Source of the DNA: Hymenopus coronatus
Taxonomy: Eukaryota; Arthropoda; Insecta; Mantodea; Hymenopodidae
Reading direction: 5' to 3'
Assembly: GCA_030762935.1 (NCBI GenBank)
Contig: CM060900.1
Span: forward strand, 283,794,284 to 283,858,283
DNA length: 64,000 nt
Translations under genes and position numbers: made by a program
Shown here: piece after piece, positions 8,400-62,336 of the stretch
How positions within the stretch are numbered: position 1 is the stretch's first letter
Layout: every line of letters starts with the position of its first letter
The notes under the pieces: model-generated
The model's input: the letters and a program-made list of their open reading frames with translations, nothing else
The model's database searches: none
Told to the model about the DNA's origin: nothing

Positions 8400-8411
8400 C
8401 GGACAGAGGAA

Positions 8412-8654
8412 CTTTTTTGTAGTGTTTAACGCCCGCTTTAACTACTTATGGCACCGCAGGCGGTGACACTGATGATACATGAATGATGATGGAGTACCGG
8501 TGGAATGCGATGGCGGGGGAAACCGGAGTACCCGGAGAAAACCCACCCCAGCGCCGTTTTGTCCACCACAAATCTCACATGTGGTTGCTTGGGATCGAAC
8601 CCCGGCCGTCTAGGTGAGAGGCGAGTGGTCTAACCACTCGGCCACGGCGCGGCC
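8412..8654 (-). mobile_element. tRNA-derived SINE (family A) inserted in the LINE
   Basis: On the minus strand it starts with a tRNA-Ser/Leu-like head: box A is TGGCCGAGTGG and box B is GGTTCGATCCC. A body ending in an AT-rich tail follows. A 12-bp duplication, CGGACAGAGGAA, flanks it at 8400-8411 and 8655-8666. The second LINE copy carries this position without the SINE (GGACAGAGAAGG near 63471), which confirms insertion into ORF1. A related copy lies in the core of the giant element (17401-17602). Confidence 0.92.
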
Positions 8655-8666
8655 CGGACAGAGGAA

Positions 8667-10025: not shown

Positions 10026-12144
10026 ATGGCTATCCTACAGTGGAACATGCGTGGAGTTAGATCACATCGACCAGAGCTTGAACTGTTGCTAAATCTGCAT
10101 CGGCCCTTGGTGGTTTGCTTACAAGAGACCAAGTTCCATCCTCGGGACACCGCTACCATTAGGCAGTACTTCTCCATACGCTGTGGTTTATCACCGGAGG
10201 AGGGTATCCCAGTTCATGGAGGCACTATGATGCTTATCCGAGATGGTATATTTGTCGAACCCGTACCCTTACAATCTGACATCCAGTCCGTCGCTGTGAG
10301 GATTCAGTTTCCCTCCGCCATTTTCACCATTTGTAGTCCCTATCTATCTCCATCTGCTGACCTTTTACACACGGACTTAGAAGATCTAGTTGCGCAGCTG
10401 CCTCCATTTCTATTGGTAGGAGATGTGAATGCCCATCACCCACTTTGGGACTCGCCTCGGGCGTGTGTGAGAGGTAACCTCATTACAAACTTCTTGGACA
10501 GTAATAACTTAGCTCTCTTGAACACCGGAGAGCCCACATTTCTTTCTGACGCCTTTCATACTGTTTCATACCTTGATATAGCTATTTGTTCACCCCAGTT
10601 AGCAATTTCCTTAAGTTGGAATATCATATCTGATTTGCATTCTAGTGACCACTTCCCATGTCTTATTAGTCTCTTGACGCATCCTGCATGTTCCACCCGT
10701 TTACCAAACTGGCGATCGATCAAGCCAACTGGGATTTGTATTCCCGCTTGGCTGATTTTAACCATGATGAGCACGCCTCTGTGAACTATTTAGTTGACCA
10801 CTTCTCAGAGATAGCTCTATCCTCTGCTGAAAAATCAATTCCACGTTCTACCGGCCAAACTCGTCACTTTCCGGTACCTTGCTGGACTGACGAGTGCCGG
10901 ACTGCTATTCGTGCCCGCAGGGTGCTCTCAGGGCTTTCCAGCGTCGCCCTACACTGGAAAACCTAATACAATATAAGAAAATGCTTGCTCAATTTCGACA
11001 AGTTATTAAGGATAGCAAAAAGACATCCTGGAGCAGCTTTGTAGCTTCCTTTAGTAGACATACCCCTTCCTCTGTCGTGTGGGATAAGTTGAAGCGTGTG
11101 GCCGGCAAATCGACCCATATGCCAGTCGCTGGTCTCAGAACCGCTACCGATGTTGTTGCTAACACATTTGACGTGGCTAACACTTTGGGTAGTGCTTTCG
11201 CTCAGGTATCTAGCTCAGACAATTATTCCCCTGAGTTCCTTAGACTTAAGCATCAGGTGGAATCTCAAGTGTATTCGTTTCGTTCCGGAAACTTTGAGGA
11301 TTACAACCGTATTTTCACCATGGCAGAGTTAGACTATGCACTGCAATCTTCGCGGAACTCTGCGCCTGGTCCAGATGGCATCCAAGTTTAAATGTTGCAA
11401 CATCTCTCTTCTGATGGCAAGGCTTTTCTACTCGAGGTGTATAACCGTATCTGGGTTGACGCCACTTTTCCAGACAGATGGCGGAGGGCCACCGTTATAC
11501 CTATACTGAAGCCTGGGAAGGACCGTCATCTTCCTTCCAGCTACTGTTCTATTTCCCTCACGAGCTGCATATGCAAGGTGATGGAACGCATGATCAATGG
11601 ACGGTTGGTCTGGTGGCTAGAATCCCACAATCTAATGACTAATGCCCAGTGCGGTTTTCGACGGCGTCGGTAGGCAGCTGACCATTTTGTATCGCTATCG
11701 ACACAGATAATGAACGGCTTTCTTAAAAACTGTCAAACGGTTGGAATATTTTTTGACCTTGAGAAAGCTTATGATACGTGTTTGCGAGCAGGTATATTAC
11801 GTTCCCTCCACAACTGCAATTTTCGTGGACGCCTACCGTTATTCATTCAGGAGTGTATGCGGGACCTAGCTTTACGAGTAAGAGTCGACTCGGTTTTCCC
11901 TACCCACTTTATTCAAGAGAACGGTGTGCCGCAGGGCTCTGTACTAAGCGTGACGCTGTTTGCTATAGTGATTAATTCCAAACTGCAATGTGTTCCCCCA
12001 AGTGTCTCATCCTGTTTATTTGTGGATGACTTTGCCATTTGCTGTACTTCTCAGCGTACACCGTTTTTGGAACGCCGCCTCCAGCGGTGTTTGTACAATC
12101 TCTATGATTGGTGCTCGAAAAACCGCTTTCGTTTCTCACCTCAG
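10026..12144 (+). pseudogene. LINE ORF2, 5' part: endonuclease and reverse transcriptase, broken
   Basis: The start at 10026 (MAILQWNMRG) suits the conserved N-terminus of AP-type endonucleases. The QWN, QET, GDVNAHHPLWD and SDH motifs are visible in residues 1-215. A frameshift near 10710 moves the reading to WDLYSRLADFN, and another occurs near 10900. The reverse transcriptase follows with APGPDGI (11370), ILKPGKDRHLPSSYCSISL (11500), FDLEKAYD (11755), GVPQGSVLS (11925) and FVDDFAI (12022). In-frame stops lie at 11389 and 11672. The sequence ends abruptly in RFRFSPQ at the giant element's insertion point and resumes at 28434. The motif order and RNase H downstream identify an I-group polymerase. 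Confidence 0.9.
12135..12144. repeat. left 10-bp target-site duplication of the giant element
   Basis: CTCACCTCAG here and CTCACCTGAG at 28434-28443 differ at one base. Either copy restores the reverse-transcriptase frame (SPQKTVC or SPEKTVC). Confidence 0.85.
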
Positions 12145-13157
12145 TAGTGAGAAGATGAGAGAGCTAAAATTCGAAGAAAATGCCGCCAATGTAAAACATG
12201 ATGTCGTACAAGATAACACTTAAGATAACATCTGCCAACAGACCACTCACAGAGCGCTGCCTCTTTGCCAAAACAACAATCTAAAAGCTTCCCCATGTCA
12301 AAGTAGGTGCTGCCAGGTACAGCCCCCCTCCCCCTTTGCCAAACCACCTGTCTAAAAGGTTTCTCTTGCAGGGCTGTTAATCGTTTGAACAATCATCTTT
12401 CACATTCCCAGATCAAATTTAATTTCATCCATTGACCACGCCCACGCGGAAAAAACCCGCGTATTTCTAATTTTTCGAGCTAAACGGCTCATCTGCATAT
12501 CAAATGGACGTAGTTTTTCACGGGGTATCTGAATCTTTAATCATAAATGCAAACTGCTATTCATTTCTATTCGATAGCATTTTTAATTAAAAATATGTCG
12601 GATTTCCCTATCTCTTGCAAGGCTCATTTGCATGACAAACCGGACTAACTTTTCACAAGGAATCTGAATATACATAGTTCAACTGTCTTGGCGAAATAAA
12701 AAACTCCATATAATTACTGAGTAGAATATTTAATATCAATTATTTGATATCGCTTGAGCATGCGTTTGCGGTAATATTTTCGCAAAGAATTATAACACTC
12801 ACACGGTTGAATACGTTAAAAGCTTTATTATGCAATACCAACATATGAAATGGAAAAATAGCCAGAGAGAATTGCGTTTATAACACCTACTAATTCATCA
12901 TATCAAAACCAATATGGCGGCGAAGTGATTGAGTTTCCAACGAGCAGAGTGCCAACCTAAGACCTCTCTAACAATGAGAATGCCAACATCATTCCAACAC
13001 CAGACGTTATATCTTAATATCGTCTCTTACACGGAGACCTATAATCAACTTTCAGTGGGGGTTGCAACCACGCGACTTTACGGCTATGTATAATTAAACA
13101 ACCGCAAAAAGGATTGAATGTAGAACACAATTATAACACTCGCTATAAATAAAATCT

Positions 13158-13690
13158 GTTCTTATTCCCTTATAAGCCCCTATCCAGTACAAGAATTAAC
13201 TTAACGAATTATCAAGAAACTTTAATGACATTTACACTAATTAAAATGACAGTAACGCTTAAAGAATTGAGGTTACAATAAAACGCCATAATACTTTTCA
13301 TATTCCTTTATCAGCCCATACCCAGCACAAGTATAAGATACAGATTGGTTAATTTAAGATTTTAATTTACAATTACGCCAATTAAAATTACAATAACGGT
13401 TAAAGAATTGAAGCCACAATAAAACGCCATAACACTTTTCTTATACCTTAATCAGCCCATACCCAGCACAAGTATAAGATTCGTGATTGGGTACTTTAAG
13501 AAATTTTTAATTACAATTACCCCAATTAAAATGCCGTTTAACGCTTAGAGAATTGAAGGTACAATAAAACTATATTAGTCTTTTCTCAATCCTTTACCAT
13601 CCCCTATTCAGTACGAGTATTAGATTCGCGATTAATCCAATAAATTTTAATCACAATTATTTCTTTACTTTAATTAAAAACAGCAAATAA
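13158..13690 (+). repeat. tandem array 1 in left arm, about four ~140-bp units
   Basis: Each unit has the same order of blocks: a CCAGCACAAGTATAAGAT-like block, a TAATTACAATTAC..AATTAAAAT block, a GCTTAAAGAATTGA block, and ACAATAAAACGCC followed by a TTTTC-rich joint. The units are diverged, so the array is older than the arm duplication. The mirror copy is at about 26880-27430. Confidence 0.8.
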
Positions 13691-14434
13691 CAGCTCCATT
13701 TGCAACGCTATAGCGAAATGAGAAGTACAGATTCATCACGAAATTACATCTACATGCCAATTACTACTTGGATTATATGCCTAGTGTATTCAAACATTCT
13801 TCGTATAACTATCACAAGACTTCTATAAAATGCTTTTATTTACGCAAATGTCAGTCCTATTCCAAAAATCTGATGTTCCATTCACATGACTTTCTCTACT
13901 TCTTTGCAACAAATTATTGTTAAAAAGCTTGTACCTTTATGTACTTCATGCTAATCTTGTAAAAATTAGTAGAAATAGTCTTCATACTTGCTTCCTTGTC
14001 AGTAGAAGCGAAATAAGGGAGTACCATAGGTTAAAGTGATAGTCATAGTCAAAAGTTGGTTGCTAAGTCACTGAAGTTCCTTTATTTGTATGGACAGCAG
14101 TTGAGAAACCCCTGTATGAGAAAAGTGTGCGTTTTTAAAGCTGAAACAAAAAACCAGGAATATTTAAAAACATACAACTCCACGAAAAAAGTATTCAACA
14201 CAAATTGTGTATTTTAACCTACTCTACATTTTTTGTACAGTAAGCTTTTATCTATCTCTTACGGTTTAGCAGTTATGCAAAATTTCGTAAAATTCACTCT
14301 GAACAAAGTAGTCTTCAAATGCTATTCCCAGAAATGTCAAAATATACATTTCATTTGTAGGTTAAATATATTTAATATACAATATTTTAATCAAAATCGT
14401 TAGTCATTTTTTATAAAATCAAAAATTTCGAAAA

Positions 14435-14735
14435 AAGTTCCACGTGAAGGGTAGTTTGGGGTGGGGGACTTTTCTCAAAATCTTCGTATCGCATCCCTGG
14501 AAGATACTTAACTTAAATACTAATTTTGGTATTTTACCGACTTTTCGTTTTTTGAGTTATGGTGTTCACAGACACACGACACACACGGGCTTTTTTCTGA
14601 AAATATCTTTTTGGAAACAGGGGACCCTAAAACATATTTCCAGTGAAATCTCGATATCGAATTTTTTGGTGGAGTGCAATACCTTCTCTATACAATATGT
14701 ACATAGTACGTGTAGAGAAAGTAAAAACAACAGAT
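14435..14735 (+). repeat. arm module also found outside the element at 40.15-40.5 kb
   Basis: The block contains a GGGGTGGGGGACTTTTCTCA segment, a GAAGATACTTAACTTAAATA segment, a GT/CA-rich short tract and an AGAGAAGGTATTG-type block (in reverse complement). All four recur in the same order at 40150-40500. It is thus either an older transposon captured by the arm or a sign of related elements elsewhere. Confidence 0.7.
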
Positions 14736-14739
14736 AACG

Positions 14740-15660
14740 TTGCTTGAAATCACTTAGACAGTCTACAACTGACTCAGTAGTATTCTCTATTTTCAGCACT
14801 GAAGTATAAGTTATGACTTGAAGCGCTCATCACATGAAAATTTTCAACAAGGGAACACCATACCAAAAACAAACATTGCTTGAAATCACTTAGCCTACAA
14901 CTGACTCAGCAGTATTTTCTAATTTTAACACTGAACATTTTCAACAAGGGAATACCATACCAAAAAACAACAACAAACATGGCTTGAAATCACTTAAGAC
15001 TGCCTAAAACTGACTCAGCAGCATTCTCTAATTTCTACACTGAGGTTTAAGCTGTAACTTGAAGCACTCAACACATTACTTGATAATTCTGCATACATAA
15101 ATATCTTCAAAAGAAATACCATACAAAAACAACAGCTAACATTGCTAGAAATCACTTACAGCCTACAATTGACTCAGTTATATTCTCTAATTTCAACACT
15201 GAACACTTTCAACAAGGGAATACCATACCATAAACAGCAGCTAACATTGCTTGAAATCACTTAGACAGCCTACAACTGACTCAGAAGTATATTCTAATTT
15301 CAACACTGAAGTATAAACTATAACTTGAAGTATCACGTATCTTGACGATTATGCATAAATACATACCTTCAAAAAGAAATACCATACCAAAAACAAAAGC
15401 TAACATTGCTTGAAATCACTTAGACAGACTATAACTGACTTAGCAGTATTCTCTAACTTCAACACTGAAGTATAAGCTATAACTTGAAGCACTCATCACA
15501 AAACTTGACGATTATGTATAAAGAGATATCTTCAAAGAAGAAATGCCATACCAAAATACAACAGCTAACATTGTTTGAAATCACTTAGACAGCCTACAAC
15601 TGACACAGCAGTATTCTCTAATTTCAACAATGGCGTATAAGCTATAACTTGAAGCACATG
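14740..15660 (+). repeat. tandem array 2 in left arm, about seven units
   Basis: The shared core reads GCTTGAAATCACTTAGACAG, then CCTACAACTGACTCAGCAG and TATTCTCTAATTTCAACACTG. Units start near 14746, 14875, 14975, 15140, 15245, 15405 and 15570, with spacers of variable length containing CAAAAACAACAGCTAACATT. The mirror copy is at about 24940-25850. Confidence 0.85.
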
Positions 15661-16000
15661 AGACCGTTATTTAACCCTGTAGTAATAACTATCAGTCTAT
15701 TAATTATATATATTTATAGGTAACGAGAGTTAATGTTCAATAAATTGTATGCATAGGGTGCAAGAACCAGACTGGATAGAGGGGTGAGAAATTGCTTCTT
15801 TTGTGAAAGTCACGTTTGAGTTTAGTTTAAGGAGAAACCATAGCTTAAAGCTCACAAGGGGACTTCTCCTTCATATTCGTTGTATCACGTGATTATTATG
15901 ACGCATTCTGGGAGATTTGCAATGATTTTTGGGTAATGATGGTGTCACTTTTGTGGACCTTCTAACCACTCAGAAAAAAGCCAACATGACACCGTTTTTG

Positions 16001-16010
16001 GTATATAAGA
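16001..16010 (+). promoter_or_regulatory. inward-facing TATA box, left arm
   Basis: GTATATAAGA stands about 20-30 bases before the 37-39-bp array and is conserved in the right arm at 24535-24543 on the minus strand. It would drive transcription into the core. Inference from sequence only. Confidence 0.45.
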
Positions 16011-16030
16011 CGTAAGATTCAGCAAATCAG

Positions 16031-16380
16031 GGTAGTTGCTAAGAAATCACCCGTGAGAGACGCCACGTCGGTCGTTGCTAAGAAATCACCCGTGGGAGAT
16101 GCCACGTCGGTCGTTGCTAAGAAATCACCCAAGGGGGAGGCCACGTCGGTCGTTGCTAAGAAATCACCCATGGGAGACGTCACATCGTCGTTGTTAAGAA
16201 TTACGCGTGAGAGAGGCCACATCGCCTTTGTTAAGAATTACGCATGAGAGAGGCCACATCGCCGTTGTTAAGAATTACGCGTGAGAGAGACCACGTTAAC
16301 CGTTTGTTAAGAATTCGCCAAAGAGAGGTCACGTCGGACTGTTTGTTAATAATTCGGCTGTGAAGTAACGTAACGTCGCT
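16031..16380 (+). repeat. tandem array 3 in left arm, nine 37-39-bp units
   Basis: The first four units begin GTTGCTAAGAAATCACCC and end CCACGTCGGTC. Later units drift to GTTGTTAAGAATTACGCG and GTTTGTTAAGAATTCG. The right arm has about seven units at 24260-24530, so the arms differ in copy number. Directly abutting units with no spacers exclude a CRISPR array. Confidence 0.88.
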
Positions 16381-16670
16381 CGCGATTACGTGAAAGTGAA
16401 TTGGGCCATGTCCTCAACGAAAGTAGTGTAGTTAAGAGTAGTTGTGAGTCAGTGTTAGAGGGCATCCTTCAGCTGTATAAAAGTGTATAACGAGGTGCTT
16501 GTCATAAATTTCCTTCATAATAAACAAGTACAAGGTTTGCAAGTGTTTTTCTTAATATCTACAAGAACACTCCTACGACTCTACCCACTAGCTAAATCCA
16601 CGCCTGGGAGAGTCACGATTCGTGCAAGACTGCGCAACGCCGTGGTAATCCATCCCGGCGGAACTTCAGT

Positions 16671-16681
16671 ACCAGGTACGT
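16671..16681 (+). promoter_or_regulatory. consensus splice donor in left arm
   Basis: ACCAG|GTACGTGAG is a near-perfect 5' splice site on the inward strand, with the GT at 16676-16677. The corresponding position in the right arm (minus strand, 23948) reads ACCAG|ATACGTGAG, so the GT is lost there. This suggests that transcripts start in the arm and are spliced into the core. The matching acceptor is not identified. Confidence 0.45.
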
Positions 16682-17400
16682 GAGAGTAGCGGATTATTTG
16701 GAAGTGACAGTTAGTTACGTTGCACCTAAGCACACAACGTGCGGCAATAACTACAAATTCAAACCTTACGCTTCATATGACTTCCCAACCTGGTGAGTAA
16801 AAGCAGTAACGCAACAACACCCACATCAAAAGTACCCCTGCATATTACTGACTAACGTGGAGCCTGCAACAACAAAAACACCGCTGCATATGACGCGGAG
16901 ACAGTCTTATTTTCTTTATTATAACTAAGTGCATTGAATGTTTTTATCTTGTTTTTTGTATTGATTGCAGATCTGATTAGAAGCAGTGGTTGTAGGAGTG
17001 TCCATTTAAAATTGCGGGTTCGGTTTAGTTCTATCAAACATAAATGGGTTTTCATTTTCTTCACTTTTATATGAGTTTTAGTGTAATAAAAAGCTCGACG
17101 AGAAACCATGAGTTCACCTGTGGTATTCTTTTTGGCGTGATGTAGGTGTAAGGAAATATTCTTTTGCAGAATCCTGCACAAGGGTTGAGATTTCATGATA
17201 GACAGTATTAAAATAATAATATTCTTCTATTACTTTATACTGTTCAAGAGAAACATTTTCCAGAAGAAATGTTCTTGTTCAATTGTTCCTTATAAATAGG
17301 GACATTAGCGGAATTTACTAGGTTAGTCAGATTTTTTATAATGCATAGCCCTGCGATTCTCATTGAAACTCGGTTCACTTTTTAATGTGTTTAGCCTGAT

Positions 17401-17602
17401 TTTACTACTTGTGGCGCCGCAGGCGATGACACATGGAATGATAAGGGAACATCGATGGAATGTGATGGCAGGGGGAAACCGGAGAAAACCCCGCCCCTGC
17501 GCCGCTTTGTCCACCACAAATCCCACATGCTGTTGCCTGGGGTCGACTCCAGGCCACCTTGGTGAGAGGAGAGTAATCTAACCACTCGGCCATGGCGTGG
17601 CC
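17401..17602 (-). mobile_element. tRNA-derived SINE (family A), second copy
   Basis: The same family as 8412-8654. On the minus strand the head begins at 17602 with box A TGGCCGAGTGG and a degraded box B (GAGTCGACCCC), followed by the shared body containing GGGATTTGTGGTGGACAAAG. It sits in the core of the giant element, so the SINE family was active after the core was assembled, or the core carried it along. A clean target duplication was not found. Confidence 0.85.
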
Positions 17603-19311
17603 TCACGAAATGTATTGACATGAGTAAACCAATAAAAATGAAACGAAATATCACTTCCAGTTAAAGAGAGTTGAAGTAGTATAAATCTGAAGTCAATAAA
17701 ATTGAGTGTTTAAGTTATACTGTACCTACCCCTAATATTTTTCTGAAAATGCTCAATTGGTATTTTCAGACGATCAGTGTCCTTGTGCTCCTGCGCCCAT
17801 GACTTGAATGATTCGGCTATCATTAAAATGAGATTTTCTTTTATATATAATTCACGATTATAACTCTAAATAATAGCAGAATGTTTTCACTACATGTTAC
17901 TCCATTGTACATTAGAAATAAGAAAGTTAATGTGCTAAAGCACTTCAATATCATATGAAAAGACCGCGTTGTTTGTCTCTACGAATTTGTGTATTTTTAG
18001 AGGTTTGCTGTTTCACATACACTCACTCGGACACTATACTTTGTCTAAAACTTGCTTTTTAAGTGTTCGGTCACCCTCAAATCGTGTATTCATTGTAAAA
18101 CCCTTTGTATCGAATTTACTTGTACAAATTCTCTTTTGTAGAAAGTTTTGTAGAAATATATGAAGTATGTAGTACAACTTTTTTCTCGTGAAGCTAGTCA
18201 ATTACTTGTAAAGTTTTCTGAAAAAGTGTTATAAGTAAATTAAGCTATCGCTGCATATTATACATTTAAGTACTAGGAGAGCGTAATTTTTTAAAAATCT
18301 TACCAGCCGTTTCAAAGTTCTTGATTGATTATATTTCTTCTTTTTGCGAATTAGCTCACAATTTTTCATGTGATTCCTACCAATCTCTGCACTGAGGCCT
18401 TTTCTCTAAATTCAGTTATCTGATATCTGTTTGTTCCACTTTTATAGATGGACGCTTGTATTAAGACGTAAATTTGATTGCTTATAGCACTTGTAGCACT
18501 TGTTGAAACTGTTTTTCATTGGTCGAGTTAAGTATTATTTACACTCGTGTTTAGAGAAGTGTGATAAAAAGTAAAGCTGAAGAAACGGGTTATTTCCTGT
18601 ATGAATGCTAGTAAACAAGAAATGCCCTCTAGATATCTGGGACTCAGCATGCTGAACGTCTATCACCAGAAATTACAATATTAAATTGTCTGATTATACA
18701 CAATAAGGTATTTACCTACAAGCTCTTATCGCATGTCATGTAATCGATAATTTAAATGTTCAATTATGCAAAGGAATAGGATATTTAAAATTTGTATTTG
18801 TTTTTGTGGAAGAAAAACATTAGTGGGATTATATATACACAATCTTTTTATTTATAGGTATTTTCATTTCATTACTTCTCCATGTTCGTACCTTTTCAAG
18901 ATGTTTTTATTTGCATTAGATTAAATAAATATTTGCTTATAAATGTGCCAGCTTCTTTTACATCTTCATTTTTTAAATCCTACACATCCTTTGTTTATAT
19001 TTGCATTAAAGAGTCTAGTGGCTTCGTTTTTTTTTTTTTTTTTTTTTTCATGAATGCAATAAATCATGATACATTTTTAATATATTCACAATGTACGCAC
19101 TTTGTCTTTTGTGCACATACAGAATTCAGGGAGTCATAGACGCCCTTTGTATATGTGATATATATCACATTAGGATCACTGCTGTTGAGAAGCACTGGTA
19201 GTTCATAATAAAGCGCTACACTAGAACTATTTGTTTTGGATATGTAGAATTGGATGGATTCGTTTTGTTGGTCTGCTGCTGGTTCCATATTTCTCTATGC
19301 TTGCCTCTCGT

Positions 19312-19400
19312 TTACAAATGTTGTGCATGCGGTCTTCCAGCAATCTCAACTTCCTGAGATGATAGCAAAAAGGTTTTTCTTCTCTTGTATCTCCCTGGAT
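19312..19400 (-). CDS. core gene, exon D (basic C-terminus)
   Basis: The acceptor GATGTTACAG precedes 19400. Joined in phase to the donor at 19541/19540 it continues as NPGRYKRRKTFLL and ends HAQHL-stop at 19312-19314. The KRRK run could be a nuclear signal. The alternative is that the transcript is not spliced here and ends at the stop near 19509 after SNQISMRV. The predicted intron (19401-19540, 140 bp) is similar in size to the other two. Function unknown. Confidence 0.5.
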
Positions 19401-19540
19401 CTGTAACATCAAAATTATTGAAAATTAGTAAATGTTATTACTTTTCCTGTGGCTCGATCACTGCAGTGGAAATAAGGTTAGGTTCTTTATTGATGTAATA
19501 GCAAGATATTATACTCGCATTGATATTTGATTCGACGTAC

Positions 19541-19674
19541 TCGTATTCGGAATGTCATCATAATCTTGTACAGGGAAGGTGTTCCATGGGTTTGAAATAC
19601 AGACATCCACCTTGTCAACGTCAGCCCTATCAGGGTCTGTGAGCTCTGACGGTAACGGAATTGACTCTCGAACA
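19541..19674 (-). CDS. core gene, exon C (acidic segment)
   Basis: The acceptor is CTTCTTTCCAG, ending at 19675. The exon completes a Ser codon with the AG left by exon B, then reads VRESIPLPSELTDPDRADVD and an Asp-rich stretch to DYDDIPNT. It ends either at the donor GTACGT (19540) or runs on to a stop near 19509. The phase agreement across the 99-bp intron (19675-19773) supports a real exon. Confidence 0.65.
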
Positions 19675-19773
19675 CTGGAAAGAAGAATGAGGGTTATTAG
19701 TTGTTTTTTTTTTTCTTCAAGAAACAAGTGTGTGGTGTGCTTATCACTTGTCGTATTTTTAGTTTGTAATTAC

Positions 19774-19986
19774 CTGTGTCGCATATGCCTTGACAAATAC
19801 ACGCTGCAGGTCAAGTTGCAGATGAAATATGATGTTATTCTATCATGCACTGCGGGTTTTGAACAAATCACCACATGAGTGCGACCGTTGCATAATTCTA
19901 TGTGATCTTCAATCTCATGTGCTGATCTAAACATATCCGTTGCATCTATGGTATCTGAATCGTGAAGCTCTTGGGTGTTCCTACCC
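19774..19986 (-). CDS. core gene, exon B (second Cys/His repeat)
   Basis: The acceptor is TTTTTTATATGCAG ending at 19987, and the donor GTAATT starts at 19773. The exon encodes GRNTQELHDSDTIDATDMF and then a repeat with the pattern CNGRxH, C, H, I, C, CSVY. The same spacing is found at the end of exon A. It joins exon A with a Leu codon split 2+1 across a 94-bp intron, without stop or shift. One copy of the repeat per exon suggests exon duplication. Not similar to any transposase, zinc-finger or envelope family that I can name. Confidence 0.75.
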
Positions 19987-20080
19987 CTGCATATAAAAAA
20001 TGTATTGGAATTAGTCAACATTACTCGAATACAGATGTAGTACTAATAATAGTAGAAAGACGTGAACGTGTTATACTTAC

Positions 20081-20390
20081 AATATATTTCGCTCGTAGAC
20101 ACTGCAGTCATCGGTACAGGGGTTGCTTGAAGGTATCTGATTATGGTAAACAGGATATGTGCATGTAATCGAATGCATTCGTCCATTGCACGATCCTTTG
20201 TGAAAGTATGTATAATGATGCGAATGTTCAGCGCACTCTCTCCTGTATTCGTTCATATCCTCAAAGGTTTTGACGATTTTTTTTTTCAAGAATGCTTTTT
20301 CACGGCGGCTATATCTAATAAGTAGCACTATATTGCAGACCTTCTGCTTATATAGCTGCTCAAATAAAAACATATTTTTTCGGTGTATAC
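20081..20390 (-). CDS. core gene, exon A (first Cys/His repeat), start uncertain
   Basis: It ends at the consensus donor GTAAGTATAA (20080-20071). The C-terminal half reads SCNGRMHSITC, then a PVYHNQIPSS block and CTDDCSVYERN, preceded by a His-rich run (HSHHYTYFH). The N-terminal half is basic (SRREKAFLKKKIVKTFED). A possible upstream acceptor is CTCCCTTAG ending at 20391 or GAGCAG ending at 20356. Alternatively translation starts at the Met near 20409. Further 5' exons in the right arm are possible. Role unknown: a DNA-binding or accessory protein of the element is a guess from Cys/His content and the basic patch. Confidence 0.7.
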
Positions 20391-20800
20391 CTAAGGGAGG
20401 GGAATGCATGTATCTGCGTGTTCTTAGCCTGTAGGGGCCGAGTGAGGATGTTTTTCTAACGTAAAGCTCTGAACAGGAGAGGCTAGGGTATTATGTTTAA
20501 AATGTCGCCAGCATTCTTTATCGTCTGAAACTGGTTGGGTCATGCTTCCCTATTGTAAGAGTAAGTCTCAGTTTTTCCTTGTGGTATATGTTAGCCAAGA
20601 GGTGAGCAGCCTTGCGTGGTTTTTATTCATAGAGATTGTGATAAATGTCTACTAAATATTTCCCCTTTTATGATAATATTTATTTATGAACAATCTTCAA
20701 GTTATGTGATAAGTGTGCAGCGGTGTTTTCGTTGCGTTGTTGCCCCACGTTATGTGCGCCATATGCAGCGGTATTTTTGTTGTTGCAGGCTCCACGTTAG

Positions 20801-23763
20801 CAGGGGCGGCTCGTCCTTACGTGCTGAAGAGCTGCAGCACGCTACTTTTTTTTCTTCTAAATTACATAACAGACATGCTGAAGGACCATGTAACAAACAT
20901 AACACATTATGGTAGTAATAAGAAAGGCAGCACTGCCAATGACGAACTCTCGAAGCAAGGTAAACACGCAAGTTTAGCTAATGGAATGCATCCACGTGCT
21001 CAAAGCGATCAAGCACGGTAGGTGAATATTGCGCTTGCGTAGAACCTTCCCCTCTTACCCCCCCTGACGGTCGCTGTCCCATCGTTTTCGCACTGCTAAA
21101 GCACGGAATCAATGAAATCGCTACGAGTGTTAGTTCTTTTCCTTATAATCGTTTTGGCAGCAGACGAAACAGCCCTGCCACACTCACCTAAGTGCCACAC
21201 TAAACATCAGAATTTAGTGAAATTAATTAAAGCGTATTACAACGTTTTATTTTAGTTATAATAACTAATTATATCTTTGTGATACAAACTGAGCCATAAA
21301 AGGACTATTATCTCCATACCTTATTCACATTGGAACGTACAGAACATTGTTTGTTATATTGTTTGTTAACATTGGTAACCATAAGTTCATATTGGCGCAA
21401 TGTGTTACTTCCGCAAATGTGAAATCTAACAGGCCCACGTGTATCACATTGAAACAAAGTGTTCTGTTGTGTAAATGTTATTCAGTGTCAGTTTTCAGTT
21501 TATTTCCAACTGTGATCGCACTTTATTATATTTCAGTATCATTCAGTGTAGGTTTGTGTTACTTTCATAGGTAAGAAAACTTTAGTCATACATAATGAAT
21601 ATAGTTGATGAGCTGTTAAAAACTCCCTTTTCAAGGCGATCGTTAGATGAAAAGATCAGGATAAAAAATTTAGGGCGACCTACTCCTGATCTAAAAATTG
21701 AACAGAAAGCAAAAGGAAGTAAAAATTCTATTTACACAAGAAAGTTTAACACAAATATATATGACAACAGTGACTGGATCTGTGGTTGTGAAATCAGAAA
21801 CGCGCTCTTTTGCTTTCCTTGCCTCTTGTTTGGAAGTACAGATTCGTGGTCTACGACTGGTGTTAAAGATATAGGTCATGTTAATGAATATATAAAAAAA
21901 CATTCAAATAGCAAGAAGCATATGAAAAACTCGCTTGACTTCTCAATGCTTGGAGGTGTAAATATTGCAACGCAGCTAAGCAGGGCATATCAAGATGCTA
22001 CACAAAAACATAATGAACAGGTTGAGAAAAATAGATACATATTATCCAGGATAATAGACTGCATCAAATTTTGTGGGGCCTTTGAGCTTGCTTTGCGTGG
22101 ACATGATGAGACGGAAACGTCAGATAATCCCGGCGTGTTTTTAGGCCTTATAAATCTATTGGGCAGTATAGACAGTGCGATGAAAGAGCATACCGAAAGC
22201 AATAAGGTGTTCAAAGGATTATCTAAGACCATCCAGAATGAACTACTTGATTGCATGTTGGAAGTGTGCCACGAAGAAATTGAAAGAGAAATGAAGGAGG
22301 CAGCCTATGTTGCTATCATGGCAGACGAAACCACTGATATCACTGAAAAAATTCAGTTGGCATTAATTTTTAGATATGAAAGGAACGGCTTTATTTATGA
22401 ACGGTTTTGGGGATTTTTTAATCCATCTGATCAGACCGCTAATTCTATTGCCGGTTGCATTTTGAAAGAAGTGGACACCCTTTTTAAGGATGATCGCCAT
22501 AAAATCATCGCCCAGACTTATGACGGTGCGTCTGTAATGAGCGGCAACACAGGAGGCGTGCAGATCAAGGTGAAAGAACACTATCCTCTCGCACAGTATG
22601 TACATTGTTACGCCCATCAATTAAATCTGGTTATGGAGAAAGCAGCTTCTCAAAATCAGTCCGCCAGAATATTCTTCTGCAGTCTCTCAGCTTTTCCAGC
22701 ATTTTTTTCAAGATCTCCACAGCGTTTAGCAGCATTGGAAGCAACTGTTGCTCGAAGAGTTCCTCGAGGATCTGCAACAAGATGGAATTTCAAGTCTAGG
22801 ACTGTTAACACCGTATATGAACACAGAGAATCTCTGATCGATTGTTTTGACGAATTAGAACAATCTTTATCAGATAGGACAGTGCAAGAAGCTCGTGGCC
22901 TGCGGCATAATTTGGAGGATGGAGAATTTAATTTCTGGCTTGCTTTTTTTCAGAAAATAATGCCACATGTAGACATTTTGTATAATCAGCTACAAGCAAG
23001 ACAGATGGATGCAGTGAAGGCAAAAAATGCAGTCCAATCTTTTGCCAAAGCAATTGATTCCGTGCGAAGTAGAACGGATGATATAGCACACCAGATTCAG
23101 ACATCTAACGTCCACGTTACAAAAAGACGTCGTAGGGAAACTAACTTAGGAGTAGATGCCAAGGAAGTATGTGACCGAATAATATCGGAGGTACACAGCC
23201 GCTTTGAGTCCACAGAACATCTTGATGCTGCAAAACTATTGGATGCAAAAAACTTTGAATTATTTTCTCAAGTTTTTCCTGAAACAGAACTCGGCATTGT
23301 CTGTGATCGATACAAAGATCTCGACAAAAACAAGCTCCGAACCGAACTTAGCATTTTATATGAGCATCCGGAATTCAGGAAAGTAGAAGGTGCTCTTCCA
23401 CTCTTGCAGTTGACACTAAAAAATAATCTGCAAAAAACTTTTAGTGAAGTGACAAAGGTTTTAAGAATTGTTGTGACTATTCCCATGTCAACTGCAGAAC
23501 CAGAACGATGTTTCTCCTCTTTGAAGAGGATAAAAACCTTTCTGAGGAACACCATGTGTCAGGATCGCCTTACCTCTCTGGCCATGCTATCCATAGAGAA
23601 GAAATTCGTTACAAGTATCAGGGATTTCAACGTCAGAGTGATGGACAAATTCTGCATGAAGAAACATCGGCGTATGGACTTCATTTTTCGAAACTAGGTG
23701 GGTTGCATGCATTTTTTTTCACCCGTGCAGCACGCTACTTGTTTTAGGCACGAGCCGCCACTG
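20801..23763 (+). mobile_element. complete hAT transposon (Tip100-like), nested in the giant element
   Basis: The terminal inverted repeats read CAGGGGCGGCTCGT (left) and CAGTGGCGGCTCGT (right, reverse complement). A second shared block, GCAGCACGCTAC, lies just inside each end. The 8-bp duplication CACGTTAG is perfect at 20793-20800 and 23764-23771. The left arm of the giant element carries the corresponding empty site once (CTAACGTG near 16850). The element is 2963 bp with a single uninterrupted transposase frame. TIRs of the CAGGGGCGG type and a TTF-finger transposase fit the Tip100 branch of hAT; the assignment to that branch is inference. Confidence 0.96.
21595..23697 (+). CDS. hAT transposase, TTF zinc finger / ZMYM1-like, intact
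   Basis: The 700-residue protein cuts and pastes the surrounding element. Residues about 61-112 hold a TTF-type finger (WICGCEIRNALFCFPC, then the HSNSKKH pair). The RNase H-like core follows: IMADETTD at 241-248 gives the first Asp, QTYDGASVMSG at 307-317 the second Asp, and CYAHQLNLV at 338-346 is the conserved helix. A long helical insertion domain precedes the C-terminal dimerisation block, where AEPERCFSSLKRIK (634-647) supplies the catalytic Glu. The length is normal for the family and no stop or shift is present. The ATG at 21595 is the first in frame, with stops upstream. It could still be functional, since TIRs and TSD are also intact. It is not the giant element's own transposase, because it lies wholly between hAT ends. 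Confidence 0.96.
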   Translation: MNIVDELLKTPFSRRSLDEKIRIKNLGRPTPDLKIEQKAKGSKNSIYTRKFNTNIYDNSDWICGCEIRNALFCFPCLLFGSTDSWSTTGVKDIGHVNEYIKKHSNSKKHMKNSLDFSMLGGVNIATQLSRAYQDATQKHNEQVEKNRYILSRIIDCIKFCGAFELALRGHDETETSDNPGVFLGLINLLGSIDSAMKEHTESNKVFKGLSKTIQNELLDCMLEVCHEEIEREMKEAAYVAIMADETTDITEKIQLALIFRYERNGFIYERFWGFFNPSDQTANSIAGCILKEVDTLFKDDRHKIIAQTYDGASVMSGNTGGVQIKVKEHYPLAQYVHCYAHQLNLVMEKAASQNQSARIFFCSLSAFPAFFSRSPQRLAALEATVARRVPRGSATRWNFKSRTVNTVYEHRESLIDCFDELEQSLSDRTVQEARGLRHNLEDGEFNFWLAFFQKIMPHVDILYNQLQARQMDAVKAKNAVQSFAKAIDSVRSRTDDIAHQIQTSNVHVTKRRRRETNLGVDAKEVCDRIISEVHSRFESTEHLDAAKLLDAKNFELFSQVFPETELGIVCDRYKDLDKNKLRTELSILYEHPEFRKVEGALPLLQLTLKNNLQKTFSEVTKVLRIVVTIPMSTAEPERCFSSLKRIKTFLRNTMCQDRLTSLAMLSIEKKFVTSIRDFNVRVMDKFCMKKHRRMDFIFRN

Positions 23764-24259
23764 CACGTTAGTCAGTAATATGCAGGGGTACTTTTGATGT
23801 GGGTGTTGTTGCGTTACTGCTTTTACTCACCAGATTGGGAAGTCATATGAAGCTTAGATTTTGAATTTGTAGTTATTGCCGCACGTTGTGTGCTTAGGTG
23901 CAGCGTAACTGACTGTCACTTCCAAAACATCCCTCTAATCTCACGTATCTGGTACTGAAGTTCCTCCGGGATGGGTTACCACGGCGTTGCGCAGTCTTGC
24001 ACGAATCGTGACTCACCCAGGCGTGGATTTGGCTAGTGGGTAGATTTGTAGGAGTTTTCTTGTAGATATTAAGAAAAACACTTGCAAACCGTGTACTTGT
24101 TTATTATGAAGGAAATTTAAGACAAGCACCTCGTTATACACTTTTATACAGCTGAAGGATGCCCTCTAACACTGACTCACAAGTACTCTTAACTACACTG
24201 TTTTCGTTGAGGACATGGCACAATTCACTTTCACGTAATCACGAGCGACGTTACGTTAC

Positions 24260-24530
24260 TTCACAGCCGAATCATTAGCAAACAGTCCGACGTGGCCTCT
24301 CTCTGTCGAATTCTTAACAAACGGTCAACGTGGTCTCTCTCACGCGTAATTCTTAACAAAGGCGATGTGGCCTCTCTCAGCGCCTAATTCTTAACAACGA
24401 CAACGTGACGTCTCCCAGGGTGATTTCTTAGCAACCGACGTGGCGTCCCCCTCGGGTGATTTCTTAGCAACGACGGACGTGGCGTTTCCCACGGGTGATT
24501 TCTTAACAACTACCCTGATTTGCTGAATCT
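24260..24530 (-). repeat. tandem array 3 in right arm, about seven units
   Basis: Mirror of 16031-16380 with about two fewer units. The units match the same GTTGCTAAGAAATCACCC and TTGTTAAGAATTACG types in reverse complement. Confidence 0.85.
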
Positions 24531-24534
24531 TATC

Positions 24535-24543
24535 TCTTATATA
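24535..24543 (-). promoter_or_regulatory. inward-facing TATA box, right arm
   Basis: TATATAAGA on the minus strand, mirror of 16001-16010. It points toward the minus-strand core gene and toward the hAT insertion, which now lies between this promoter and the core. Confidence 0.45.
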
Positions 24544-24939
24544 CCGAAAACGGTGTCATGGTGGCTTCTTTCTGAGTGGTTAGAAGGTCCACAAAAATGA
24601 CACCATCATTACCCAAAAATCATTGCAAATCTCCCAGAATGCGTCATAATAATCACGTGATACAACGAATATAAAGGAGAAGTCCCCTTGTGAGCTTTAA
24701 GCTATGGTTTCTCCTTATACTAAACTCGAACGTGACTTTCACAAAAAAAAAAAGCAATTTCTCACCCCCCTATCCAGTCTGGCGTCATGATTCTGAGTAA
24801 CTTTCCAGTAAACAACTTGCTTCTTGATCTTTATGCATACAACTTATTAAATATTAACTCTCGTTACCTATAAATATATATATAGATAATTAATAGACTG
24901 ATAGTTATTATTACAACGGGGCTAATTAACTGTCCCAAG

Positions 24940-25850
24940 TGCTTCACGTTATGGCTTATACGCCAGTGTTGAAATTAGAGAATACTGCTGTGTCAGTTGT
25001 AGGCTGTCTAAGTGATTTCAAACAATGTTAGCTGTTGTTTTTTTTTTGGTAAGGTATTTCTTCTTTGAAGATATCCCTTTATTCATAATCGTCATGTTAT
25101 GTGATGACCGCTTCAAGTTATAGCTTATACTTCAGTGTTGAAATTAGAGAATACTGCTGAGTCAGTTGTAGTCTGTCTAAGTAAATTCAAGTAATGTTAG
25201 CTGTTGTTTTTGGTACAGTATTTCCTTTTGAAGGTATTTAATTATGCATAATCGTCAAGATACGTGATGCTTCAAGTTATAGTTTATACTTCAGTGTTGA
25301 AATTAGAATATACTTCTGAATCAGTTGTAGGCTGTCTAAGTGATTTCAAGCAATGTTAGCTGATGTTTATAGTATGGTATTCCCTTGTTGAAACTAGAGA
25401 ATATAACTGAGTCAGTTTTAGGCTGTAAGTGATTTCTAGCAATGTTAGCTGTTGTTTTTGTATGGTATTTCTTTTGAAGATATTTATGTATGCAGAATTA
25501 TCAAGTAATGTGATGAGTGCTTCAAGTTACAGCTTAAACCTCAGTGTAGAAATTAGAGAATGCTGCTGAGTCAGTTTTAGGCAGTCTTAAGTGATTTCAA
25601 GCCATGTTTGTTGTTGTTTTTTGGTATGGTATTCCCTTGTTGAAAATGTTCAGTGTTAAAATTAGAAAATACTGCTGAGTCAGTTGTAGGCTAAGTGATT
25701 TCAAGCAATGTTTGTTTTTGGTGTGGTGTTCCCTTGTTGAAAATTTTCATGTGATGAGCGCTTCAGGTTATAACTTATACTTCAGTGCTGAAAATAGAGA
25801 ATACTACTGAGTCAGTTGTAGACTGTCTAAGTGATTTCAAGCAACGTTAT
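24940..25850 (-). repeat. tandem array 2 in right arm
   Basis: Mirror of 14740-15660, with the shared core CAGTGTTGAAATTAGAGAAT followed by CTGCTGAGTCAGTTGTAGGC, in about seven units with variable spacers. Confidence 0.83.
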
Positions 25851-26879
25851 CTGTTGTTTTTACTTTCTCTACACGTACTATGTACATATTGTATAGAGAA
25901 GGTATTGCACTCCACCAAAAAATTCGATATCGAGATTTCACCGGAAATATGTTCTAGGGTCCCCTGTTTCCGAAAAGGTATTTTCAGAAAAAAGCCCGTG
26001 TGTGTCTGTGTGTCTGTGAACACTATAACTCAAAAAACGAAAAGTCGGTAAAATTAGTATTTAAGTTAAGTATCTTCCAGGGATGCGATACGAAGATTTT
26101 GAGAAAAGTCCCCCACCCCAAACTACCCTTCACATGGAATTTTTTTCGAAATTTTTGATTTTATAAAAAAATGACTAACGATTTTGATTAAAATATTGTA
26201 TATTAAAGATATTTAACCTACATATGAAATGTATATTTTGACATTTCTGGAAATAGCATTTGAAGACTACTTTGTTCAGAGTGAATTTTACGAAATTTTG
26301 CATAACTGCTAAACCGTAAGAAATAGATAAAAGCTTACTACAGAAAAAATGTAGAGTAGGTTAAAATACACAATTTGTGATAAATATTTTTTCGTGGAGT
26401 TGTATGTTTTTAAATATTCCTGGTTTTTTGTTTCAGCTTTAAAAACGCACACTTTTCTCATACAGGGGTTTCTCAACTGCTGTCCATACAAATAAAGGAA
26501 CTTCAGTGACTTAGCAACCAACTTTTGACTATGACTATCACTTTAACCTATGGTACTCCCTTATTTCGCTTCTACTGACAAGGAAGCAAGTATGAAGACT
26601 ATTTCTACTAATTTTTACAAGATTAGCATGAAGTACATAAAGGTACAAGCTTTTTAACAATAATTTGTTGCAAAGAAGTAGAGAAAGTCATGTGAATGGA
26701 ACATCAGATTTTTGGAATAGGACTGACATTTGCGTAAATAAAAGCATTTTATAGAAGTCTTGTGATAGTTATACGAAGAATGTTTGAATACACTAGGCAT
26801 ATAATCCAAGTAGTAATTGGCATGTAGATGTAATTTCGTGATGAATCTGTACTTCTCATTTCGCTATAGCGTTGCAAAT

Positions 26880-27430
26880 GGAGCTGTTATTTGCTGTTTT
26901 TAATTAAAGTAAAGAAATAATTGTGATTAAAATTTATTGGATTAATCGCGAATCTAATACTCGTACTGAATAGGGGATGGTAAAGGATTGAGAAAAGACT
27001 AATATGGTTTTATTGTACCTTCAATTCTCTAAGCGTTAAACGGCATTTTAATTGGGGTAATTGTAATTAAAAATTTCTTAAAGTACCCAATCACGAATCT
27101 TATACTTGTGCTGGGTATGGGCTGATTAAGGTATAAGAAAAGTGTTATGGCGTTTTATTGTGGCTTCAATTCTTTAACCGTTATTGTAATTTTAATTGGC
27201 GTAATTGTAAATTAAAATCTTAAATTAACCAATCTGTATCTTATACTTGTGCTGGGTATGGGCTGATAAAGGAATATGAAAAGTATTATGGCGTTTTATT
27301 GTAACCTCAATTCTTTAAGCGTTACTGTCATTTTAATTAGTGTAAATGTCATTAAAGTTTCTTGATAATTCGTTAAGTTAATTCTTGTACTGGATAGGGG
27401 CTTATAAGGGAATAAGAACAGATTTTATTT
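26880..27430 (-). repeat. tandem array 1 in right arm
   Basis: Mirror of 13158-13690, four diverged units of about 140 bp. Confidence 0.8.
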
Positions 27431-28433
27431 ATAGCGAGTGTTATAATTGTGTTCTACATTCAATCCTTTTTGCGGTTGTTTAATTATACATAGCCGTAAA
27501 GTCGCGTGGTTGCAACCCCCACTGAAAGTTGATTATAGGTCTCCGTGTAAGAGACGATATTAAGATATAACGTCTGGTGTTGGAATGATGTTGGCATTCT
27601 CATTGTTAGAGAGGTCTTAGGTTGGCACTCTGCTCGTTGGAAACTCAATCACTTCGCCGCCATATTGGTTTTGATATGATGAATTAGTAGGTGTTATAAA
27701 CGCAATTCTCTCTGGCTATTTTTCCATTTCATATGTTGGTATTGCATAATAAAGCTTTTGACGTATTCAACCGTGTGAGTGTTATAATTCTTTGCGAAAA
27801 TATTACCGCAAACGCATGCTCAAGCGATATCAAATAATTGATATTAAATATTCTACTCAGTAATTATATGGAGTTTTTTATTTCCCCAAGACAGTTGAAC
27901 TATGTATATTCAGATTCCTTGTGAAAAGTTAGTCCGGTTTGTCATGCAAATGAGCCTTGCAAGAGATAGGGAAATCCGACATATTTTTAATTAAAAATGC
28001 TATCGAATAGAAATGAATAGCAGTTTGCATTTATGATTAAAGATTCAGATACCCCGTGAAAAACTACGTCCATTTGATATGCAGATGAGCCGTTTAGCTC
28101 GAAAAATTAGAAATACGCGGGTTTTTTCCGCGTGGGCGTGGTCAATGGATGAAATTAAATTTGATCTGGGAATGTGAAAGATGATTGTTCAAACGATTAA
28201 CAGCCCTGCAAGAGAAACCTTTTAGACAGGTGGTTTGGCAAAGGGGGAGGGGGGGCTGTACCTGGCAGCACCTACTTTGACATGGGGAAGCTTTTAGATT
28301 GTTGTTTTGGCAAAGAGGCAGCGCTCTGTGAGTGGTCTGTTGGCAGATGTTATCTTAAGTGTTATCTTGTACGACATCATGTTTTACATTGGCGGCATTT
28401 TCTTCGAATCCTAGCTCTCTCAGCTTCTCACTA

Positions 28434-29990
28434 CTCACCTGAGAAGACAGTCTGCGTTAACTTCTGGCGCCGTAGGTGGCGACATCCTCCATGTCTACGA
28501 CTCGGGCTGGATTTGCTTCCATTCGCAGATGAGGCGAGATTCCTTGGGTTGATCTTCGATCGGAAACTTTGTTGGTCACCACATATAGCAGGTTGAAAGG
28601 GCGATGTGACCGTTCTCTCAATCATTTACGGTTACTAAGCGGTAAAACCTGGGGAGCGGATCGAACAGTGCTGCTTCGTCTTTATGGCGTACTGATTCGA
28701 TCGAAGTTGGACTATGGATGCATTGTTTATTCTTCAGCACGACTATCAGTGCTCAAAAGATTAGATACAGTCCATAATCAGGACATTCGTGTGGCGGTTG
28801 GAACTTTTCCAACCAGCCCATTTGTTAGACTCTACACCGAATCGGGTGAACCCCCTCTGCGACATCGGCGCGATGTCCTGCTAGCTAATTATGGATGTGG
28901 GCTCAAGTGCATGCCTGGTCATCCAACTTTCCATGCGTTTTTCTCCCCCGAGCTGGACGAACGATATCGCCACCACTCCCTTAATCCAAAGCCTACAGGT
29001 TTTCGTTTTCGTGACCTTCGGCTACATGATATTGACATGCTGAGGCTGTTTCCCAAGGTGGAGAGGAGGTTCCCTCCTTGGATTCGTGCTGCCTCTCATG
29101 TCAATCTGGGGATGACGGTTTACGGGAAATCTGCTATGCCAGCTTATAGTATCCGTAAGTTTTTTTTTTTGTTTTTTTTTAGAAATACAGTGGCTATATT
29201 TGTATATATACCGATGGCAGTAAGTTCCCCGACGGTGTTGGTGTACCTTCGTCCATGGTTCCGAATCTTTTACTTTCGGTTTGCCTAGTAGCACATCCAT
29301 ATATTCTTCCGAGCTGTATGCTATTTTGTATATTCGCCGCCGAAAATTAAGTGACTGCCTTATTCTTAGCGATTCCCTCAGTGCCCTTCAGAGCATTCGT
29401 GAGCTGTACAATTACCATTCTTTAGTGCAGTGCATCCAGGATGCCCTCCACATTTTGCAATCCTCTGGGGTTAGTATGGAACTAGCATGAATCTCTGGAA
29501 GCGTTGGACTTCCAGGGAATGAACTTCCAGATTAGGCAGCGAAATCGGCAGTCACAGAGCCCAGGGTTAATATTACCATTGCATCTACGGAAGATCTTAG
29601 GGCTGTTGTGCGGAGAGCTGTATTTTTTAGCTGGCATGCGGAGTGGTCGGCTCTCCAAAGTAACAAGCTTTGGGACGTAAAAGATCATCTTGTCACCTGG
29701 GCAACCTCCTCACGTCCTTCTCGCCAGGAGTAGGTGCAATTGGCTCGGTTGCGAATTGGCCACTGTTATTTTACCCATTGTTTCCTTTTTAATAGTTATC
29801 CTGACCCTGTCTGTCCGCTCTGTGGCGCAGCACTGACAGTAGCACACGTGCTGGTAGAGTGTGCTGTTCTGCTATCTTTTCGCATCACTCTCCAGCTGCC
29901 AGCCTCCCTAGCGGAGGTCCTTGGCAATGACGGGGCTGCTCTTGACAGAGTTTTTAAATTTTTATCTACAGTAAATTTTACATTCAGGAT
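28434..29990 (+). pseudogene. LINE ORF2, 3' part: RT thumb, RNase H and zinc finger, broken
   Basis: It resumes the reverse transcriptase after the insertion with EKTVCVNFWRR and ARFLGLIFDRKL. A frameshift near 28585 leads into LKGRCDRSLNHLRLLSG and YGVLIRSKLDYGC. RNase H is visible as FVYIYTDGSK near 29200 (first Asp) and SSELYAILYI near 29303 (Glu), then LILSDSLSAL (Asp). The C-terminal finger CPLCGAALTVAHVLVEC (29812-29862) is a CCHC type common in I/R1-group elements. T-rich runs at 29160-29180 and several frame breaks show decay. About 250 bases of 3' UTR follow to the TCA tail. Confidence 0.88.

Positions 29991-62126: not shown

Positions 62127-62128
<2 letters not shown>
60265..62128 (+). 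mobile_element. CGBP1-like hAT fossil, ends tentative
   Basis: From about 61140 the plus strand gives, across breaks, YAAEFMDIFSSDGKILYCQ and VIQHFRGNKHKG, a BED-type finger (Cys then two His). Residues like FSVYCKKMQGS follow near 61400. The right end CTAAAATCCCAAGCCCTA (62111-62128), in reverse complement TAGGGCTTGGGATTTTAG, resembles the hAT end at 53562. A similar GGAATTTTAGGT stands at about 60272-60284 on the left. No TSD confirmed. The palindrome at 60490 lies inside. Confidence 0.55.
60490..60685. repeat. perfect hairpin: 93-bp arms, 10-bp loop
   Basis: 60490-60582 and 60593-60685 are exact reverse complements by eye, with AGGGTGATCA between. Each arm contains a block of Penelope-end type (CTGAAGA, short stem, CGAAACGTTGG, then AAGTTATTACCTGGCTAGAA). 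The two arms are thus the same element fragment joined head to head. Confidence 0.93.
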
Positions 62129-62207
<79 letters not shown>

Positions 62208-62263
62208 TATCATTATCATCACCACTATTATTATTCCTGCTACAATTCTATTACAATTATAAA

Positions 62264-62336
<73 letters not shown>

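Follow-up and report, generated by a model that had tools for sequence, protein, structure and literature searches.

A foldback-shaped element of the mantis Hymenopus coronatus as a probable satellite of a resident Polinton/Maverick lineage

Vertebrate Mavericks possess 5'-(AGT)2//(ACT)2-3' ends along with 6-bp target-site duplications (TSDs) (PMC8097293). Various 'foldback' elements have been placed elsewhere. Tetris of Drosophila virilis, for example, was assigned by its authors to Mutator on the basis of its TSDs, which are of 8-10 bp, and has terminal inverted repeats (TIRs) of up to 1.7 kb (PMC4079207), with Mutator-like elements (MULEs) displaying TSDs of 8-11 bp (PMC6446971). Tm1, a Mutator/foldback element of root-knot nematodes, has a 9-bp TSD and a Phantom-type MULE transposase, and Galileo is named in the same source as a P-type foldback (PMC3169594). 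Considered in the following is an element found within a 64,000-nucleotide stretch of DNA from Hymenopus coronatus (assembly GCA_030762935.1, contig CM060900.1, positions 283,794,284 to 283,858,283), with that whole stretch referred to as the window and all unprefixed positions counted from its first letter. The element has a foldback anatomy, i.e., long inverted arms which hold tandem repeats, and is viewed here, with a probability of roughly 0.88, as a non-autonomous, foldback-shaped derivative, or 'satellite', of a Polinton/Maverick lineage that the same genome harbors.

The likeness to Polintons/Mavericks is one of end motif, of 6-bp TSDs, of a TIR held in common with a resident Polinton, and of a 13-16-kb scale. 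The element is unlike an autonomous Polinton in that its window copy is without detected polB or integrase and in that its core instead carries a spliced orphan gene, while its arms, at 4.7 kb, compare with TIRs of 172, 361, 214, and 1084 bp in those four Polintons of this genome that were measured. With Tetris the element shares a division of arms into outer, tandem-repeat, and inner domains, a non-autonomous character, and variability among copies, differing in the TIR length, TSD length, and Mutator assignment given above (PMC4079207). Tm1 likewise has foldback arms of variable length and non-autonomous copies, and differs in its TSD and its transposase (PMC3169594). Teratorn, which combines a piggyBac-like transposase with herpesvirus genes over 41-182 kb, is different again (PMC6431247).

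The ends of the element were fixed by comparison with other copies found in the genome (3.13 Gb, 384 contigs). The outer 256 bp of the window element served as query, with the best 40 of 648 candidates scored, two of these being the window's own and many of them lying as inverted pairs. Thirteen other loci were fetched, consisting of nine inverted pairs and four others (L003-L008 were left out of the analysis). In these loci, the left end of the copy designated C4 excepted, ends read AGTAG or AGTAGT, which lies two bases outside of TAGTGAGAAG, the sequence with which a preliminary description of the window had the element begin. AGTAGTGAG is read at both window ends, that is, as an AGT-type 5' end with ACT at the 3' end, and the exact end sequence is AGTAGTGAGAAG. 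As family copies combine AGTAG-type ends with 6-bp flanking repeats, the window element spans 12143-28435. Flanking it are CACCTC (12137-12142) and CACCTG (28436-28441). Among the 12 two-ended copies, the window included and the one-ended C21d and C21e excluded, the TSD is perfect in six (C21a TGCGAG, C44 GTGCTG, C4 GTTAGG, C13 ATCCAC, C17b AACATA, and C21b AGTTTC) and matches at five of six positions in five (the window, C11, C21c, C9, and C9s, with C11 judged by eye). Thus 11 of 12 copies keep a 6-bp TSD at a stringency which, at a fixed place, chance would provide with a probability of about 19/4096. The preliminary description had named, as a refuting observation, further copies without the common ends or TSD; among the 12 two-ended copies just one, C5s, departs from the pattern, keeping the ends but showing no convincing TSD.

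These same comparisons revise the 10-bp near-perfect duplication that was described earlier. The match itself is real, at 9 of 10 positions (12135-12144 versus 28434-28443), but in each 10-mer two bases are element end which agree with the flank by coincidence, and a 10-bp TSD was replaced by one of 6 bp once copies were compared.

Polintons themselves are well represented in this genome, with at least 76 polB genes (the best 76 of 1496 candidates) in frames of up to 1296 aa. The first three Polintons whose TIRs are listed above bear polB, display AGTAGT at six of six ends, and are flanked by perfect TSDs (AACCCA, TGCGAC, and GGTGTA, respectively); the integrases of two of the three were scanned and consist of rve plus a chromodomain. 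The fourth (C17:29272034-29291652; 19.6 kb) has a 1084-bp TIR that is 99.8% alike between ends, ends reading AGTAGG, and the TSD CCCGTT on both sides. This TIR matches the window at 81% over about 1 kb (12180-13155, plus strand, mirrored at 27422-28398) and matches all 13 other loci at 80-96%, reaching 96.1% over 1.04 kb in C13, while in the three other Polintons it has no match at an expect value (E) of 1e-3. The integrase of the C17 Polinton is an uninterrupted 319-aa frame (rve, 1.1e-10) which is 37-39% identical to other Polinton integrases (best E 1.5e-71). A coding partner, that is, one with the same end motif, TSD length, and roughly 1-kb TIR and with an uninterrupted integrase frame, coexists with the family. 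AGTAGT-type ends, 6-bp TSDs, and a shared TIR together argue for the window element being a non-autonomous, foldback-shaped Polinton derivative.

Remnants of Polinton coding capacity are seen in two family copies. When 68 open reading frames (ORFs) of the three polB-bearing Polintons were compared with the family, integrase pieces matched C9 and C4 (lowest E 1e-31), while another ORF had a weak match in C4 (1.8e-5); no other copies were matched at E 1e-3. C9 and C4 have in common a decayed core, in which a 146-aa integrase piece scores 1.3e-9 against rve, and carry decayed polB-like pieces as well. That 146-aa piece is 94-95% identical to at least 20 places possessing an open 319-aa frame (among the best 150 of 1605 candidates). 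As a separate observation, many integrases which are about 75-77% identical to the C9 piece, among the matches listed, contain a single in-frame TAG, which could mean either that a dead form was amplified or that the codon is read through.

Several points weigh against descent from, and dependence upon, Polintons. No Polinton gene was detected in the window copy, either with the 68 ORFs or by Pfam scans covering the core and the left arm, scans and comparisons that found neither a retroviral-type integrase nor a protein-primed DNA polymerase B; capsid, protease, and ATPase likewise gave no match in these, though they were not sought by name. Mobilisation is a matter of inference, no movement having been seen. 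In the C17 Polinton, Pfam finds no polymerase in the ORFs read (all but about 3 kb), with a 783-aa ORF weakly resembling the polB of other Polintons (best E 1.7e-5). The outermost 37 bp or so of the window element differ from that Polinton save for AGTAG, meaning that none of the Polintons examined is precisely the partner to which the window's subfamily would belong. The left end of C4 reads ATTAGG, the window TSD has one mismatch, and C5s has a TSD match of just 3/6, judged by eye and not convincing. Lastly, the family's ends were set by inspecting the very copies that were later scored for TSDs.

The preliminary description had favored a giant non-autonomous relative of MULE, Rehavkus, or foldback-type elements or, alternatively, the carrier of an undescribed transposition system. 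A giant non-autonomous element of foldback anatomy is indeed what is found. Kinship with MULE/Rehavkus finds no support. Mobilisation by a Mutator-type transposase would agree with the long arms and their internal tandem repeats, with flanks that repeat at 9 of 10 bp, and with the precedents of Tetris (PMC4079207) and of MULE TSDs generally (PMC6446971). Yet the family's TSD is of 6 bp rather than 8-11, its ends are AGTAGT-type, its TIR of about 1 kb is common to the C17 Polinton, and no MULE transposase domain was detected when core and left arm were scanned with Pfam in all six frames. A Mutator-type engine, dropped on TSD length, is thus very improbable. Nor is a new transposition system required, as the same TIR is found in a Polinton of this genome whose integrase frame is uninterrupted.

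The preliminary description also reported no recognisable transposase and a core gene fitting nothing known. The sole ORF of more than 200 aa within the element is, however, an uninterrupted 700-aa frame (21595-23697, plus strand) that matches DUF4371 (E 5.6e-15) and Dimer_Tnp_hAT (E 5.3e-12), i.e., a hAT transposase. hAT elements characteristically have short TIRs of CAGNG type. This ORF sits in just such an element, of 2963 bp (20801-23763, plus strand; ends CAGGGGCGGCTCGT / ACGAGCCGCCACTG, or CAGGGGCGGCTCGT / CAGTGGCGGCTCGT as also recorded), which is bounded by a perfect 8-bp TSD, CACGTTAG (20793-20800 and 23764-23771), and which thereby combines the transposase, the CAGNG-type short TIRs, and the 8-bp TSD of a hAT. 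The ORF consequently is not a gene of the larger element. Could this transposase nonetheless mobilise the element as a whole, being as it is the single sizeable ORF inside? That is next to inconceivable, as the hAT owns separate ends and its own TSD within the right arm, with that arm resuming for about 45 bp beyond the hAT's left side (20756-20800), as 20 stretches from the 13 other loci (C21d and C21e read in part) yielded no match to the hAT, and as hAT-free copies show 6-bp TSDs; the hAT as engine was ruled out on these grounds. Rather, the hAT jumped into the arm, entering the big element later. Its uninterrupted frame suggests that it may have been recently active. Among named relatives of its ORF, 'zinc finger MYM-type protein 1' from Anabrus simplex ranks first (53%), followed by proteins from Schistocerca and further animals, which points to an insect host; the closest database protein is 78% identical.

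With the hAT set aside, the size and arms of the big element can be considered. The 16-kb size given earlier holds for the insertion, which is of 16.3 kb, though 2.97 kb of that is hAT, leaving 13,318 bp as measured from the ends of the preliminary description, or about 13.3 kb. The inverted arms of about 4.7 kb stand as described, having been recovered by window self-comparison (12133-16862 versus 28445-23761, about 94% alike; BLAST, 93.8-93.9%) as well as by base-level alignment. The left arm (12143-16896, plus strand) begins with AGTAGTGAG, while the right arm (minus strand) consists of an outer part, 23772-28435, ending in CTCACTACT, and of the innermost 45 bp which the hAT separates from the remainder. 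Excluding the hAT, arm lengths are 4752 and 4707 bp, at 94% identity, far beyond chance. Within the arms are a 141-bp tandem repeat (13214-13633, mirrored at 26944-27363), tandem repeats of about 91-266 bp (14864-15657, mirrored within about 25110-25861), and, in the inner arm, a 39-bp tandem repeat (16031-16354, mirrored at 24268-24510). A 25-mer from the arm had no matches in genome-contig and viral-contig collections. One arm segment (13864-14728, i.e., arm positions 1722-2585) is a repeat found beyond the family: it flanks two Polintons (C4:45.45 Mb and C7:47.77 Mb) several times, in both orientations, and is found also outside, and partly inside, the C17 Polinton.

In the base-level alignment, 4648 aligned bases show 128 substitutions along with 16 gap events between the arms. 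These substitutions are uneven, with three in the outermost 24 bases, three in 12169-14190, and 122 in 14196-16893. The outer 2 kb thus are 99.85% alike and the inner arm about 4.7% different, with a sharp step at about 14191. Near-identical inverted arms are typical of artefacts in which a folded chimeric read has been assembled as a palindrome. The divergence pattern just described is unlike such an artefact, however, and a unique core, a hAT on one side alone, TSDs, and family copies on many contigs all speak against it, making an assembly error exceedingly unlikely.

Arm length varies greatly within this one TIR family. Aligned arms measure 0.35 kb in C11, 0.8 in C9s, about 1.0 in C44, 1.3 in C4, 1.4 in C5s (at 83%), about 2 in C9, 2.1 in C17b, about 2.3 in C21b, 2.4 in C21c, about 4.6 in C21a, and 4.7 in the window (values for C44, C9, C21b, and C21a being summed pieces). 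At the extreme, C13 is palindromic throughout, i.e., over its full 17.7 kb, with an 8.6-kb arm of 8588 aligned bases showing two mismatches and one gap, a central 573 bp that is self-complementary at 91.6%, and a perfect TSD. A 213-bp piece of the core has at least 39 further matches at 96-97% (among the best 40 of 522 candidates), and ten inverted pairs are present among those 40 matches, six of them spaced by 9470-9490 bp, with the corresponding spacing in C13 being 9586 bp. This even spacing of an internal piece, close to that of C13, suggests that one palindromic form has recently multiplied.

The core between the arms (16897-20755), which has long 82-90% matches in the majority of the further loci read, likely encodes a gene. 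Of the 13 other loci, 11 possess this core (C11 a short stretch of it), C9 lacks it, and C4 retains a 178-bp match. As modeled, the gene lies on the minus strand (19227-20373) in four exons: 20373-20081, 19986-19774, 19674-19519, and 19400-19227. The window copy is damaged, its third splice donor being lost and its last exon frameshifted, while in C13 all four exons are open, giving 277 aa (junctions placed by hand); C13 and C21a carry the gene in both arms. Splice signals are kept in most copies. An initial three-exon, 235-aa model exceeded in length every chain obtained from 400 dinucleotide shuffles at each of three thresholds, as well as those from eight control stretches. It is weakened by a threshold of 3.5 having been picked after a donor score of 3.7 was seen, with the best chain at a threshold of 4 being of 414 nt and 1 of 100 shuffles longer; its frames had stops in other copies and lacked codon-position bias, which made it look refuted. 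A younger copy, L043, along with C13 then showed its start and last exon to be misplaced. Fourteen aligned rows were compared in the corrected frames, with C13 and C21a each contributing both arms; seven of the rows have an open exon 1 and 12 an open exon 2, one of these 12 after a 1-base deletion. A crude ratio of the dN/dS kind (nonsynonymous to synonymous change) versus C13 is 0.68 overall and 0.79, 0.72, 1.74, and 0.34 by exon, with change in exons 1 and 2 still spread almost evenly over the codon positions, so that constraint upon the predicted gene is weak. No homologue or family was found for it in Pfam, among solved structures, or by two protein searches.

How might such arms have come about? 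Given its ends and TSD, the satellite presumably would be inserted in trans by Polinton integrase, and, as a linear element with Polinton TIRs, it probably would be replicated by a protein-primed polymerase. A displaced strand could then fold back and be copied, i.e., 'snap back', thereby lengthening the arms to differing extents, as far as the full 17.7-kb palindrome, with gene conversion subsequently keeping stretches of arm alike, such as the window's outer 2-kb tract. Snap-back palindromic defective genomes occur in adenovirus, and the mechanism proposed there, by which protein-primed linear genomes would become palindromic, is the one invoked here, the difference being that those are virus genomes rather than chromosomal insertions. 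Somewhat short of even odds, as an alternative, is that arms grew in the chromosome, via gene conversion, unequal exchange, or break repair, whether between the two inverted halves or between adjacent copies, which would replace Polinton-type replication only and retain mobilisation by Polinton integrase. The conversion-like tract ending at about 14191 and the tandem arrays within arms are consistent with such chromosomal growth. A copy palindromic to its centre and with a perfect TSD, C13, speaks against it, as do the six of ten inverted gene pairs of near-constant spacing, as if one palindrome had been multiplied by transposition. A full snap-back account, in which the satellites are chromosomal snap-back defective genomes that employ Polinton polymerase and integrase, lengthen as palindromes, have their own spliced gene, and include one recently multiplied palindromic form with that gene in both arms, is put forward tentatively, as a possibility with the odds against it. 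The spliced gene would then act, perhaps, on host or helper.

Other features of the window lie mostly outside of the arms. The element interrupts, as was noted in the preliminary description, the reverse transcriptase of a long interspersed nuclear element (LINE), with the left fragment (11674-12142, plus strand) matching RVT_1 (E=2.5e-17) and the protein resuming at 28442 (SKNRFRFSP / SPEKTVCVNF, judged from the window flanks); compared with solved structures, the LINE protein spanning the insertion gave nothing useful. An insertion resembling a short interspersed nuclear element (SINE) is found in a LINE at 8409-8655, with the 12-bp repeat CGGACAGAGGAA on either side, and a SINE-like repeat in the element's core (17377-17602) is 77% alike to 8411-8654. 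A second LINE copy, at 63014-64000, is without the SINE-like insertion. Positions 60489-60686 comprise a stretch of about 200 bp that is its own inverted repeat, at 96%, and 62128-62962 contains long ATC/ATT trinucleotide tracts. An Rfam scan of the window returned no matches.

No paper naming non-autonomous or defective Polintons/Mavericks was found in the open-access collection searched, subscription papers and repeat databases being outside of that search, and Polinton satellites thus seem to be little described. In this genome a single TIR family comprises both coding and non-coding members living side by side, its arms ranging from 0.35 kb to a full 17.7-kb palindrome. That coexistence, together with that range, means that a single genome allows for direct testing both of how foldback arms originate and of parasitism on a virus-like transposon. 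Foldback shape by itself, moreover, does not imply Mutator.

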